Shown here piece by piece: positions 10,610 through 14,890 of a stretch of DNA of 64,000 nucleotides; position 1 is the first letter of the stretch; each line of letters starts with the position of its first letter. Location of the stretch: assembly GCF_001458215.1 (NCBI RefSeq), contig NZ_CYTW01000002.1, forward strand, positions 124,001-188,000, in the 5' to 3' direction. Position numbers and translations under genes: made by a program. The notes beneath the pieces are model-generated. The model had not been told where the DNA came from, made no database searches, and was given only the letters and a program-made list of their open reading frames with translations. This stretch comes from Shimia thalassica. GTDB taxonomy: Bacteria > Pseudomonadota > Alphaproteobacteria > Rhodobacterales > Rhodobacteraceae.

Positions 10610-11413
10610 TTAAGCTGCGAGATCGACCCAGACCGGCACGTGATCCGATGGCTTTTCGCGACCACGGACCTCTTTATCAATCTGACAGTCTGTCAACAGA
10701 TCCGCGCATTGCGGGCTCAGCAGGAAATGGTCGATGCGAATACCGTCATCCCGATTCCATGCGCCCGCCTGATAGTCCCAGAAGCTATAGTGCCCACCAC
10801 CAAATGTCCGCGCACGGAACGCTTCGGTAAACCCGAGGTTTAGCAGGCGGCGAAACGCGGCACGGCTTTCCGGACGGGCGAGGGCATCTTCTTGCCATGC
10901 TTCGGGGCGGCGCGCATCTTCGTCTTGGGGAATAATGTTATAGTCACCCGCCATCAGGAAGGGTTCTTCCAGCGCCAGCAACTCTTGTGCGCGCTTGTGC
11001 AAGCGTTCCATCCAGCCCAGTTTATAGGCGTATTTTCCGCCCGGCACAGGGGCGCCGTTCTCAAGCTCGACCGGATTGCCATTCGGAAGATAGAGACCAC
11101 ACACCCGCACGGGGATGTCCCCCATGACAGTTGCCTCGATCCAGCGCGCCTGTTCGTCGCTGTCGTCACCCGGAAGGCCCCGCGTGATGTCCTCAAGCGG
11201 TAGCTTTGACAGGATTGCCACTCCGTTAAAGCTTTTCTGGCCATGGGTTTCGACCTGATAGCCGCGCTCTTCAAAGATTTCGCGCGGGAAAGAGTCGTCT
11301 ACGGATTTGATTTCCTGCAGCAAAACGACATCAGCTTCGGCCTCGTCCAGCCATTGTGGCAGGGCCTGAATCCGCGCTTTGATGCCATTGATGTTGAATG
11401 TCGCGACTTTCAT
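10610..11413 (-). CDS. xth: exodeoxyribonuclease III
   Basis: A 267-residue EEP-fold nuclease, normal for ExoIII. Conserved segments are MKVATFNINGIKAR (metal-binding Asn), VVLLQEIKS (catalytic Glu), AGDYNIIPQ, and the C-terminal DDGIRIDHFLLS and SDHVPVWVDL (catalytic Asp-His). The ATG at 11413 is preceded by CAGGAGAG; the frame continues 13 codons further without a better start. It repairs AP sites and 3' blocked ends. Its promoter region is shared with the divergent MFTSGL-repeat gene. Confidence 0.92.
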   Translation of the reverse strand: MKVATFNINGIKARIQALPQWLDEAEADVVLLQEIKSVDDSFPREIFEERGYQVETHGQKSFNGVAILSKLPLEDITRGLPGDDSDEQARWIEATVMGDIPVRVCGLYLPNGNPVELENGAPVPGGKYAYKLGWMERLHKRAQELLALEEPFLMAGDYNIIPQDEDARRPEAWQEDALARPESRAAFRRLLNLGFTEAFRARTFGGGHYSFWDYQAGAWNRDDGIRIDHFLLSPQCADLLTDCQIDKEVRGREKPSDHVPVWVDLAA

Positions 11414-11553
11414 TGGCGGCTCTCCTGTTGGCTCGTGACCTGTATCCCGCACCGCGCGGACCCATGCAAGAGGTCAATCGGCACCGGCGCGATAGGAAGA
11501 ATCGCATCCAGTCGAAAGGAATCGGGGGCTCTGATTCCCGGTTTTTGGCGCCT

Positions 11554-11588
11554 TGCACGCTCTTACTTGTGCACAATTTTAGCGTGCA
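11554..11588. promoter_or_regulatory. nested inverted repeats, candidate operator
   Basis: Outer arms TGCACGCT and AGCGTGCA (8 bp each) enclose the 10-bp perfect palindrome TTGTGCACAA; the two centres differ by half a base pair. This looks like a dimeric regulator site, lying 140-174 bases above the xth start and 224-258 above the repeat-gene start. Confidence 0.45.
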
Positions 11589-11594
11589 TGATCG

Positions 11595-11638
11595 AAATGT
11601 GGCTTAAATGTGGCCTAAATGTGGCGGAAAAATGGCGA
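11595..11638 (+). repeat. four 11-bp direct repeats, candidate activator array
   Basis: Consecutive units AAATGTGGCTT, AAATGTGGCCT, AAATGTGGCGG and a weaker AAAAATGGCGA, exactly 11 bp apart. Direct repeats at 11-bp spacing are the usual layout for OmpR/PhoB-type response regulators. The array ends 10 bp before TATATT at 11649, a position suited to activation of a promoter for the repeat gene. No regulator is encoded nearby. Confidence 0.55.
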
Positions 11639-11733
11639 AATTTTTTCCTATATTAAATTATTTAAAATCAATTTGTTAGGCGGCTTTTGCGCTGAGATTT
11701 TGAGTGTGCGGAACAGCGCTAAGGGGAAAAACT

Positions 11734-11745
11734 GTTTTGCAAAAC
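11734..11745. promoter_or_regulatory. palindrome GTTTTGCAAAAC
   Basis: A perfect 12-bp palindrome 66 bases before the repeat-gene ATG. It contains TTTGCAAA, the core motif reported for PccR/ScfR-type short-chain acyl regulators of Rhodobacteraceae; only one copy is present, so the assignment is tentative. Confidence 0.35.
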
Positions 11746-11811
11746 CCGTTTAACGTGCAAGCCTGATGGTGCTCAAAACTTCTAACGAAACTTCACTGGA
11801 GGGTTTCCCAA

Positions 11812-12375
11812 ATGCTCGCTCAAAAATCTGCCCAAATGGTTAACGAAACGTTTGCGAACCGTACGATGCAACGCTCAACAAGCAGTCTGCATGACGGCAT
11901 GAATACTGAAATGTTTACGTCAGGTCTGTCACCGGACATGGCGTCGGACGCGTTGAGTGGTGGCGGTGCCGAGATGTTCACATCCGGCCTTGTGCACATG
12001 TTTACCAGTGGCCTTGCCCCAACCGGTTCGGCGCAAGCTGCCTCGGGTGAAGGCTTGGAAATGTTTACTTCAGGTCTGTCTGCCAGCGGAACCTCCCTCG
12101 AAAACGGGGATGCGACCGAGATGTTCACCAGTGGCCTTGTTCAAATGTTCACCTCGGGTCTTGCCCCACAGGCAAATGCTAATGCTGTTTCAGGCGAAGG
12201 TGTCGAAATGTTTACGTCGGGCCTGTCTGCTTCCGGAACATCTGCCGAGGTCGGGGACGCCGCGGAAATGTTCACTTCGGGTCTGGTGCACATGTTCACC
12301 AGCGGTCTGGCACAGCAGTCGGGTGCAAAAGCCCAGGCTGGCGAGGGTGCCGAATTGTTCACCTCGGGCCTTTAA
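11812..12375 (+). CDS. MFTSGL hexapeptide-repeat protein
   Basis: A 187-residue low-complexity protein. After a 33-residue N-terminal segment without repeats there are ten copies of MFTSGL, at residues 34, 55, 63, 84, 104, 112, 133, 153, 161 and 182; the last is LFTSGL and forms the extreme C terminus. From residue 55 they form a 49-residue superrepeat, three motifs per unit (spacings 8, 21 and 20), linked by Gly/Ser/Ala/Glu-rich segments such as SGEG and SASGTS. There is no Cys, Trp, Tyr, signal peptide or membrane span. CTGGAGGG precedes the ATG. The architecture recalls multi-core peptide precursors or repetitive surface proteins. I cannot assign a function; it may belong to a Rhodobacteraceae-only DUF family. 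Confidence 0.85.
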   Translation: MLAQKSAQMVNETFANRTMQRSTSSLHDGMNTEMFTSGLSPDMASDALSGGGAEMFTSGLVHMFTSGLAPTGSAQAASGEGLEMFTSGLSASGTSLENGDATEMFTSGLVQMFTSGLAPQANANAVSGEGVEMFTSGLSASGTSAEVGDAAEMFTSGLVHMFTSGLAQQSGAKAQAGEGAELFTSGL

Positions 12376-12394
12376 TACCAAACCATTGACAAGA

Positions 12395-12424
12395 GAGGGG
12401 CGCTGGACGGCGCCCCCTCATTTT
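12395..12424 (+). terminator. hairpin with T-tract between the repeat gene and the next gene
   Basis: GAGGGGCGC (12395-12403) pairs with GCGCCCCCTC (12410-12419, one bulged C), followed by ATTTT. It lies 20 bases after the repeat-gene stop and 13 bases before the next ATG. It probably acts as an attenuator that makes the repeat-gene mRNA more abundant than the downstream message. Confidence 0.7.
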
Positions 12425-12436
12425 AGGGAGACCGAC

Positions 12437-13510
12437 ATGACCAACGTTGTACGCCTTGACGTCCCGCCCCGCCAGCTGCCGCAGGCAGACCGCAATGCTG
12501 CCTTGATGCAAAGCTTTGCCAAACATCGCCGTTTTGGAGACGATGTTTTCTGGCTCAAGGAAAATGCCGAACTTCTGAACATTCTGGAGTGCACAGGCAG
12601 CACCGTGTCAGACCAGGGACTCGCTTGTTATCAGGGCTTTTATGACAAGGTCGAAAAGCGGTTGCAGTTTTTCCCTCAGTATTACCGGTTCTTGCTGTCT
12701 ATCTGTCTGGACCTTGAAGATCTCGGAATGACAGGTGACAAAGGGTACGGGTTGGTAAATTGGGTGTCACAACAAGGGTTTGCCCACGCCGAGCTGTCCG
12801 ATCTTCAACGTATGGAAGCCCGCCGCCTTATGGCGCGCAGAGGCGTGGACCCCCTGTCGGATGATCTGGGGCTCGAAGACCGGATGCGGGCGTTTATCGC
12901 ACGATCGGCAACCTTTGCGATGCCCAACAAAAAGGCAGCTTACGAGTTGACGCATGCCGTGTTCTATCTGTCCGAATATGGACGAAAAGATCCCATGCTG
13001 GATGCCGAGACGCGCACCTCTCTCGAATTCACCGGACTGCTGGCCTTTCTTGAACAGAACGCTGACCTGTTGGCAGAGGTTTGCATCGCCATGCAGTATG
13101 GCGGGTTTGAAGTGCCCAATGTTTGGGCGCGGTGGCTTGAACGCCATACACATCTGTTTGAAGTGGAAACCGGCGGTCAAACCACCCCTCAGGATGACTA
13201 TCATGAATTTTTGGTCTGCAACTGGCTGATGGCAGACAGCGGACAGGTGGCGTTTTCCAAACCCGTTGCCGGAGAGCGCATGGCCTTTTTCCGTCCGGAT
13301 GGCGGGACCGGCCCGTTGCGTGAACTGTCGGAATGCATGTTCCGGATGGATGATCGCAGTGATGACTGGGAGGCGATGCGCCCCGTTGTGCTGGACAGTC
13401 TTTCCGAGGACGCCCAAGCGGTTCTGTCATGGGCGGAAACATCGTCGGACAAATTCAGCGCCTTTTTCCAAGGGTTTGCACGCACCGGTGCAGCCGAACT
13501 GGCGATGTGA
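12437..13510 (+). CDS. uncharacterised 357-aa protein linked to the MFTSGL gene
   Basis: A 357-residue soluble-looking protein starting at the ATG with TAGGGAG upstream. It is mostly helical and aromatic-rich, with no signal peptide or membrane span. Segments that look structurally or catalytically important are LTHAVFYLSEYG (171-182), DDYHEFLVCNWLMAD (253-267, with His256 and Cys261) and cysteines at about 52, 64, 90, 216 and 300. I recognise no characterised domain, and no radical-SAM, YcaO or LanM motif. It lies between the repeat gene and a DMT transporter (10 bases to the next ATG), so it could process or bind the repeat protein; that is inference from position only. Confidence 0.75.
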   Translation: MTNVVRLDVPPRQLPQADRNAALMQSFAKHRRFGDDVFWLKENAELLNILECTGSTVSDQGLACYQGFYDKVEKRLQFFPQYYRFLLSICLDLEDLGMTGDKGYGLVNWVSQQGFAHAELSDLQRMEARRLMARRGVDPLSDDLGLEDRMRAFIARSATFAMPNKKAAYELTHAVFYLSEYGRKDPMLDAETRTSLEFTGLLAFLEQNADLLAEVCIAMQYGGFEVPNVWARWLERHTHLFEVETGGQTTPQDDYHEFLVCNWLMADSGQVAFSKPVAGERMAFFRPDGGTGPLRELSECMFRMDDRSDDWEAMRPVVLDSLSEDAQAVLSWAETSSDKFSAFFQGFARTGAAELAM

Positions 13511-13520
13511 GGGCAAGGGC

Positions 13521-14453
13521 ATGAAGAACGCGGCGCTCGCTGGAACCGGTCTCGTGGTTTTGTATACGTTGATGATTTCGTCGGCGGATGCGATTACCAA
13601 ATTCATCGCCAAAGGCTATGCTGCGCCACAGATGTTTGCCGTTTCCGGTTTGATTGTCGCGGTTCTTTCCTTGGGGACGGCCCGCCTTCGGTCACAAAAA
13701 CAAAGTCTGCGCACAACTTGCCCCCGCGCGATGGCACTGCGGGTCTGTCTGACGGTGATCGGCTCTGTTGCCTTTTTCTATGCATTCCGCTTGCTGCCAT
13801 TTGCCGAAGTCTTTGTTTTCATCGGTATGGTTCCTTTGTTTGCCGGTTTGTTTTCTGGCCTCGTTTTACAAGAGCACGTCCGCCCCATGGCGTGGGCGGC
13901 GCTTGGGGCAGGGTTTGTCGGGGTGCTGTGTCTGTTTCCGCAAGGCATCGCTTCGGTCACACCTGGTCACATCATTGCTCTTGTTGCCTGCTTTTGCGGA
14001 ACTCTTTCCATGATCATCGCGCGCTATATCGGGCGCTATGAAACCAACGCTCTGGCACAGGTTTTTTATCCTAACCTGTCTCTTGGCGTTGTTATGGCGG
14101 CGGCCCTGCCTTTTGTTTATCAGGCAATGCCACTCACAGACTTGCTTTGGGTCGCCGCCTATGGGGGAGTTTTGTTCGTGGCGCGATGGTTGCTGGTGGT
14201 GTCCTTGCGCTTGCTGGCCGCCTATGCGGTGACACCTTTGATGAACCTGCAATTTGTGTGGATGGTTGTTTTGGGTGCGGTGTTTTTCGGAGAGATGCCG
14301 GAAGGAAACATCTATCTCGGCGTGGCCATCGTGATCAGCTCAGGCATCTTTCTGGTCTATGACCAGATGGCACCAGAAAGGGTGCGCACGAACTGGTTGG
14401 CGCGCGCACAAAGCCGTCTGGATCTACGGCACAGAAAAACAAAGGAAATCTAA
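13521..14453 (+). CDS. EamA/DMT superfamily transporter
   Basis: A 310-residue membrane protein with about ten hydrophobic segments in two EamA halves, the standard DMT layout. I chose the ATG at 13521, ten bases after the previous stop; the open frame extends upstream inside that gene. The first span begins LAGTGLVVLYTLMISSADAITK. DMT proteins export or exchange metabolites and amino acids; the substrate cannot be predicted. It is probably co-transcribed with the 357-aa gene, which makes it a candidate exporter for that cassette, or simply a neighbour. Confidence 0.83.
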   Translation: MKNAALAGTGLVVLYTLMISSADAITKFIAKGYAAPQMFAVSGLIVAVLSLGTARLRSQKQSLRTTCPRAMALRVCLTVIGSVAFFYAFRLLPFAEVFVFIGMVPLFAGLFSGLVLQEHVRPMAWAALGAGFVGVLCLFPQGIASVTPGHIIALVACFCGTLSMIIARYIGRYETNALAQVFYPNLSLGVVMAAALPFVYQAMPLTDLLWVAAYGGVLFVARWLLVVSLRLLAAYAVTPLMNLQFVWMVVLGAVFFGEMPEGNIYLGVAIVISSGIFLVYDQMAPERVRTNWLARAQSRLDLRHRKTKEI

Positions 14454-14464
14454 GCGATATCCGC

Positions 14465-14788
14465 TTACATCGAAAAGCTTGTTCCACACCCGCAAGAGCT
14501 TGTGGCGTTGGGATTTTCGATCACGAAGCGTGCCCCGATCAGTTCTTCGGTAAAGTCGATCACGGCATTGGCCAAAAACGGCAGCGAGATCGCGTCGACC
14601 ACAACCTTTTCACCGCCACCTTCCAATACGACGTCATCGTCGTTTGGAGCATCGAGTTTTATCTCGTATTGAAACCCCGAACATCCGCCGCCTTCGACAG
14701 CGATCCGCAGGGCCTGGCCCTGCGAGGCGGCTCCGATTTCGGCTAACCGTTCGTAGGCCCGTTCGGTAACTTTCGGTGGCAGCTGCAT
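14465..14788 (-). CDS. erpA: iron-sulfur cluster insertion protein, ErpA/IscA type
   Basis: A 107-residue A-type carrier. The three conserved cysteines are in GGGCSGFQY (about residue 36) and SSCGCG near the C terminus (about 100 and 102). The ATG at 14788 has AGGAGTGACAAA upstream; the frame extends further only by unsupported sequence. It receives Fe-S clusters and passes them to apoproteins. It is convergent with the DMT gene and divergent from dgt (102-bp gap). Assignment as ErpA rather than IscA rests on standing alone, away from isc genes. Confidence 0.87.
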   Translation of the reverse strand: MQLPPKVTERAYERLAEIGAASQGQALRIAVEGGGCSGFQYEIKLDAPNDDDVVLEGGGEKVVVDAISLPFLANAVIDFTEELIGARFVIENPNATSSCGCGTSFSM

Positions 14789-14890
14789 TTTGTCACTCCT
14801 GACAAGGGGTTCACGCTTATTTCGCCGGTTCTTTTCCGGTTCATATGTGCAATATAGAAACCATAAGGACAGGCCACAAGGACCAGCATT

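Follow-up and report, generated by a model that had tools for sequence, protein, structure and literature searches.

What might a marine bacterium do with a small protein in which one hexapeptide recurs ten times, and with the enzyme-like gene that follows it? The protein is encoded by Shimia thalassica in the stretch analysed here, 64,000 nucleotides of contig NZ_CYTW01000002.1 (hereafter the window), and the genes around it are given in Table 1. The first-pass annotation had described ten motifs behind a repeat-free N-terminal part of 33 residues, with the last motif at the exact C terminus and with no Cys, Trp or Tyr in the protein. Indeed, the translation bears out each of these points: nine MFTSGL and one LFTSGL start at residues 34, 55, 63, 84, 104, 112, 133, 153, 161 and 182, LFTSGL is the very end of the chain, the first core is preceded by 33 residues free of repeats, and none of the three amino acids occurs among the 187 residues. 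The 49-residue superrepeat that had been proposed holds as a period (starts at 55, 104 and 153), but its three units are in fact two full ones and one of 35 residues, with a partial unit ahead of the first full one. Likewise, the simple 8, 21, 20 spacing is replaced by the series 21, 8, 21, 20, 8, 21, 20, 8, 21. No signal peptide was seen by eye. The N terminus reads MLA(Q/K)KS...NET in Shimia relatives and M(S/T/N)A(L/Q)xK-like in many other genera, and we infer that this conserved part is a candidate leader.

Table 1. Features of the repeat gene, its neighbours and the upstream region (positions in the window).
Feature	Position	Strand	Basis
Exonuclease III-like gene, left flank; outside the cassette but marking its site	10610..11413	-	Exo_endo_phos match
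Three AAATGTGGC copies, 11-bp spacing, intergenic	11595..11625	+	Sequence reading
GTGCAAGC element, 50 nt ahead of the start codon	11755..11762	+	Common to many relatives
Repeat (candidate precursor) gene	11812..12375	+	ATG-started ORF, 187 aa, open-reading-frame translation
N-terminal 33 residues, candidate leader	11812..11910	+	Conservation in relatives; leader role putative
Ten (M/L)FTSGL cores and spacers	11911..12372	+	Translation; last core is the exact C-terminal end
DUF6902 protein gene, 357 aa, candidate core-modifying enzyme	12437..13510	+	PF21843 E 4.7e-167, PF21836 E 3.4e-24
EamA transporter gene, 310 aa, candidate exporter	13521..14453	+	PF00892 E 2.6e-16
ErpA/HesB-like gene, right flank; dgt then argS beyond	14465..14791	-	Open reading frames, neighbour comparison

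The ten motif copies differ in their codons, serine being written as TCA, TCC, TCG, AGT and AGC (both TCN and AGY), a variety that rules out a young DNA duplication as the source of the repeat. Between superrepeat units, pS is alike high in motifs (0.73) and spacers (0.72) and pN is low in the motifs (0.093 vs 0.303 in spacers); the hexapeptide is therefore kept by selection on the protein sequence. Searches of the repeat protein against PHROGs, Pfam and NCBIfam returned weak matches only, under the cut-off where one exists, and these were treated as chance. A 22-residue string of joined motifs found no match even in its own genome, so short queries are useless for this protein. Its predicted structure has a mean pLDDT of 36.5 (13-sequence alignment), with a low-confidence helix at residues 3-15 and no confident fold, which would fit a flexible precursor, but other repeat proteins equally well.

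A DUF6902 match was found in 55 of 198 genomes of the same family and a match to the repeat protein in 40 of 198, and all 40 fall within the 55. For comparison of the loci themselves, 138 were read, namely 54 stretches from the DUF6902 genomes (the window included; G139 and the second fragment of G181 left out), four further ones and the 80 best-ranked named loci among 398 relatives found, among which 80 the nearest are Shimia, with DUF6902 identities of up to 78%. The set holds duplicates; counting only DUF6902 proteins with 300 residues or more, 120 are distinct. An upstream repeat ORF is present at 137 of the 138 loci (the best 80 of 398 included), 131 of them recognised by pattern and six by eye. 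The pattern counted an ORF ending just upstream of DUF6902 with at least two cores of a loosely defined form; as a control, 1380 random places were drawn from the same loci outside the cassette, and at least two cores were found by pattern at 36 of them. Repeats missed by the pattern are those of L206 (IMSAS), L215 and L219 (FTSSI), L105 (FLSAS) and L106 (two MMCCS), and the repeat ORF of L082 has FTSWS copies ahead of a run of N that truncates it. L114 is the sole locus of the 138 at which no repeat ORF was found. The linkage of the repeat ORF to DUF6902 is near-strict. Across the class, DUF6902 was matched in four of 289 genomes, of which three belong to the same family and one stays below the cut-off. 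Plasmids gave no DUF6902 match, and among viral contigs one stretch matched a pattern and none encoded a DUF6902 relative.

In the window, 61 bases separate the repeat ORF from the DUF6902 gene and 10 bases separate the latter from the EamA gene, whose product presumably belongs to the DMT superfamily. These genes form a cassette of Rhodobacteraceae that consists of a repeat protein, a DUF6902 protein and usually an EamA transporter. In 103 of the 138 loci (the best 80 of 398 included), the transporter gene follows DUF6902 in the same orientation, its match starting no more than 60 nt past the DUF6902 stop in 100 of the 103; it was not found in the other 35, only four of which have less than 450 nt of sequence beyond DUF6902. 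A protease or other modifying enzyme was not found in the cassette, PADLOC gave no match for its three proteins, and Rfam gave a single sub-threshold match over 11414-12440. The left-flank gene, which we take to be xthA, is upstream in 128 of the 138 DUF6902 loci, while the right-flank genes, presumably erpA and dgt (and, farther on, argS), were found in 121 and 119 of them, respectively, again with the best 80 of 398 included. We also searched for xthA in 25 genomes without a DUF6902 match, and 20 of these were read as cassette-free stretches. Neither DUF6902 nor EamA was matched beside xthA in any of the 20 stretches; in 15, xthA still has dgt and, at a distance of 36 to 2201 bases, erpA; in one, erpA is 5.7 kb away without a dgt match; and in four, neither gene was found. 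The cassette is present or absent as a unit at one chromosomal site.

Across the 75 loci having all four genes, the pairwise distances of DUF6902 and EamA correlate with a rho of 0.70, against 0.30 (DUF6902) and 0.32 (EamA) with xthA, and 0.37 and 0.42 with dgt. In a partial Mantel test given xthA and dgt, r between DUF6902 and EamA was 0.63, the highest value in 2000 permutations being 0.29. The transporter is co-inherited with DUF6902 beyond the flanking genes. A second locus from the same genus, L133, is 80% identical to the window in xthA, 88% in erpA, 77% in dgt, 86% in argS and 68% in an upstream monooxygenase-like gene, whereas DUF6902 and EamA are 49% and 48% identical; between these two loci the cassette looks to have been swapped, or to be evolving fast, at a fixed site.

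The DUF6902 protein of the window scores 555.7 bits against Pfam DUF6902 (cut-off 27) and 86.2 bits against DUF6895 (cut-off 23.8), and so belongs to the family and to the wider superfamily; the Pfam scan gave no other family. In hhalign, DUF6902 aligned with six DUF6895 proteins at a probability of 95.5% (E 1.3e-8), and by these profile comparisons DUF6902 is a distant relative of DUF6895. Six residues are invariant in the six DUF6895 proteins (Y184, H188, D229, E233, Y289 and H290), and their aligned counterparts in DUF6902 are Y169, H173, D210, E214, Y255 and H256. Y169 is conserved in 54 of 56 DUF6902 sequences, the other five in 55 of 56, and E42, D122 and D253 in all 56. The exceptions at the shared positions are L114 at each and, in addition, L106 at Y169. 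L114 carries a divergent DUF6902 homologue (25% identity) beside xthA, without H173, D210, E214, Y255 and H256, possibly a repurposed or decaying copy. At this locus the conserved residues and the repeat partner are missing together, a natural control. It may be asked whether the repeat is unlinked in function and stands beside DUF6902 through chance synteny, as a cassette fixed at one conserved chromosomal site might invite. We find this scarcely credible, because selection on the motif, the joint presence and absence of the repeat protein and DUF6902, and the joint loss in L114 largely refute it.

The AlphaFold2 model of the DUF6902 protein is nearly all-helical, with a pLDDT of 94.3. Foldseek gave nothing at E <= 0.001 with this model, and the PDB held no significant match by sequence. 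In VIA-align the nearest structures were terpene cyclases, farnesyltransferase beta, complement C3/C4 domains and transcobalamin, the best match being 5bp8 (Z 12.2, rmsd 3.8, 226 aligned), in a range common for helical models; a toroid-like (alpha/alpha toroid) fold is weakly suggested by these matches. The structural repeat protein offered as an alternative by the first-pass annotation is weakened, given a repeat protein without a confident predicted structure. That same feature would suit a related reading in which DUF6902 is no enzyme at all but a binding partner or chaperone of a repeat protein with a structural or phase-separating role. Peptide binding is common among helical folds, and we know of no activity for DUF6902. 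However, polar residues are conserved almost totally (H173, E214 and H256 as well as E42, D122 and D253), and several of them are common to DUF6895, a family with a reported epimerase. We therefore think a non-enzymatic DUF6902 very unlikely.

The part of Shi et al. (ACS Catal. 2026) available to us calls a DUF6895 member an epimerase in lasso peptide modification. The annotations of L243 and L244 name no lasso gene. At six of seven DUF6895 loci looked at, a short ORF lies directly upstream of the DUF6895 gene; the six are L131 and L134 from the same class, L132 from the same phylum, and Streptomyces, Gemmatirosa and Pseudalkalibacillus plasmids, all confirmed as DUF6895. The Gemmatirosa record carries no annotation, and its ORF was chosen by eye. 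None of these peptides was matched above the cut-off by a Pfam or NCBIfam model. Three of the six (L131, L132 and the Streptomyces plasmid) have a GPW(F/Y) stretch, which in L132 occurs twice in one protein, and the L134 peptide has a different stretch twice, WTF.S.NYVYKG. At L131:6254-6850, the DUF6895 gene is preceded by two peptide genes of 65 residues each, whose N-terminal halves are nearly identical, and an ORF that by eye is of the papain-like cysteine peptidase type lies further upstream. The seventh locus, L138, has no clear ATG-started peptide gene before its 228-residue DUF6895-type frame. A frame without ATG that precedes it (L138:4586-4882) has a W-rich end, GWWAVVSDHCVVAGG, which recalls the L134 peptide; it could be an unrecognised peptide gene and was left out of the peptide count. 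With the DUF6902 protein of the window as query, nothing was matched in G511, the genome of this locus. Among 150 genomes from the order of G303, DUF6895 was found in G303 itself and in no other. Matches in G285 and G274 are below the cut-off. QW stretches are typical of terpene-cyclase-type toroids, and QW-like stretches (LLDQQQPDGTFG and LLAQQKLDGSIG) adjoin DUF6895 or are fused to it, at L244:8643-9290 and in the C-terminal part of the L132 DUF6895 protein. The two families are thus alike in profile similarity, in the Tyr-His, Asp, Glu and Tyr-His positions and in an adjoining small peptide gene (six of seven loci for DUF6895). They differ in that the partners of DUF6895 are short, with one or two candidate cores, whereas those of DUF6902 have 2-20 cores of other sequence.

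Across the DUF6902 loci, the cores take the form [M/L/A]-F-x-[S/C/T]-[G/W/S]-x, usually after G-[D/E]-x-x-[E/Q], and the modal pentamer depends on the genus (FTSGL, FSSGS, FTSGS, FTSWS, FTTSC and others). In the 129 loci with at least three cores (996 copies), 95.7% of copies on average equal the modal pentamer of their own protein, where only copies sharing at least three of five residues with that pentamer were counted; by comparison, 10.5% of locus pairs have a common modal pentamer. A G stands six residues ahead of the F in 94% of the 996 copies. The first-pass annotation had counted orthologues lacking the hexapeptide against the multi-core idea. Taken literally, such orthologues are what is seen between genera, yet each protein is near-uniform internally. 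Cores are a better fit than a fixed structural motif, since each protein is near-uniform while the genera differ. Core types were placed on 111 of the 120 tips of a DUF6902 tree. Trp versus non-Trp cores require 4 changes there (at least 13 and on average 16.1 in 100 shuffles), the final two residues of the core 32 (at least 55, average 61.0) and the residue after F 26 (at least 34, average 38.7). Core types cluster on the tree, although plain shared ancestry could give such clustering.

The first-pass idea of a multi-core precursor has gained ground from the near-strict linkage to DUF6902, from the kinship with DUF6895 and its reported peptide epimerase, and from the co-inherited transporter. 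We consider it reasonably probable that the genes form a RiPP-like multi-core cassette, in which the cores behind a leader would be modified by DUF6902, cleaved into peptides and exported by EamA. The repeat protein would be the precursor, in which 2-20 near-identical cores stand behind a short N-terminal leader, and it is quite likely the substrate of DUF6902. Once bound by this enzyme, the flexible precursor would be modified at each of its cores without being cut, the conserved Tyr-His, Asp, Glu and Tyr-His positions most likely serving as acids and bases. By analogy with the reported DUF6895 epimerase, the reaction that we favour first, if tentatively, is epimerisation of a single core residue. 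Another reaction, such as oxidation or cross-linking at Ser, Cys or Trp that depends on a metal held by the two histidines and carboxylates, is somewhat unlikely: the conserved His, His, Asp/Glu set could hold a metal and the cores vary at Ser/Cys/Thr/Trp positions, but epimerisation is the only chemistry that we found reported for the wider family, in the part of that source available to us.

Under the multi-core precursor reading, small peptides would next be set free by proteases of the host and, in most loci, leave the cell through the EamA transporter; we put the chances of this export at about even. It is also conceivable that the repeat protein is modified by DUF6902 as its dedicated enzyme and never cut, remaining a multivalent intracellular or surface protein. 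The lack of a protease in the cassette and of a signal peptide visible by eye would agree with this, as would the patterning of the spacers themselves (G then D/E before the cores, AP/GP after). However, the last core is the exact protein end in 97 of 129 proteins, the transporter is co-inherited with the enzyme and the copy number is loose; an uncut substrate is therefore unlikely in our estimation.

How do these genes compare with known systems? FxSxx-COOH RiPPs combine a precursor, FxsA, which has a C-terminal F-x-S-x-x, with the radical SAM enzyme FxsB. The window protein ends in FTSGL and so has an F-x-S-x-x C terminus as well; unlike those RiPPs, it has many cores, and DUF6902 stands beside the precursor in place of a radical SAM enzyme. 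No FxsA-type model was among the NCBIfam matches, and FxsB (TIGR04269) had no match in the window's genome, nor any over the cut-off in 14 control genomes, a comparison without a positive control. The literature searched mentions neither MFTSGL nor DUF6902, names DUF6895 in one paper and gave no description of such a system. Multi-core precursors are described in fungi, as ustiloxin-type, Kex2-processed repeat proteins (PMC7329392, in the part available to us). As portrayed there, the fungal precursors resemble ours in their many near-identical short cores, an often DUF-type companion enzyme gene and species-diverse repeats. The window protein is, however, bacterial, shows no signal peptide to the eye and has no KR, RR, KK or RK in its 187 residues, unlike the dibasic-cut Kex2 type. 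Taken together, the gene set points to an undescribed bacterial peptide-product family.

The region upstream of the repeat gene has features of its own. A conserved element around GTGCAAGCGT (11755-11762 in the window, and in relatives) lies in many loci some 40-50 nt upstream of the start codon, often with AGAAAAA and TTTGCAA blocks ahead of it. Further upstream, many other genera have a DnaA-box-like site, TGTGGATAA; it is a perfect DnaA box, TTATCCACA, on the opposite strand, and the latter is among the DnaA-box motifs used for Rhodobacteraceae in the available part of PMC6699656. In 1.13 Mb of loci, both strands together hold 108 copies of TGTGGATAA, and 106 of these fall in a zone that extends from 250 to 1800 bases upstream of DUF6902; one or two sites in the same orientation fall in that zone at 69 of 120 distinct loci, with spacings that cluster at 52-54 and 76-77 bases. 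In 67 of 112 loci, the site is at most 320 bases upstream of the start codon chosen for the repeat gene. This zone was observed upstream of the cassette in L061-L114, L133-L137 and L143-L222. The site is absent from 19 of the 20 cassette-free stretches, the other, L227, having one per strand near one end, and the window has no exact copy but three AAATGTGGC copies instead. A replication origin at this zone was set aside, as GC skew shows no lasting flip across the window (of 16 blocks, one falls slightly below zero) and the cassette-free stretches, L227 excepted, lack the box. That the cassette is an undescribed class of bacterial multi-core RiPPs made by a minimal kit of repeat precursor, EamA exporter and a single DUF6902 epimerase, whose short D-residue peptides would act as species-specific signals or weapons and whose expression would be tied to replication via the DnaA-box-like sites, seems to us decidedly unlikely.

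To conclude, a peptide family of this kind would be easy to overlook, because its precursor resembles repeat sequence. As the cores differ cleanly between genera, they offer a ready-made panel for enzyme specificity, and the cassette is small enough for rebuilding in E. coli. If our reading is true, DUF6902 would gain a substrate and a testable reaction, the case for a broader superfamily of peptide-modifying proteins, DUF6895 and DUF6902 together, would be strengthened, and a family of peptide products would become known from a common group of marine bacteria.
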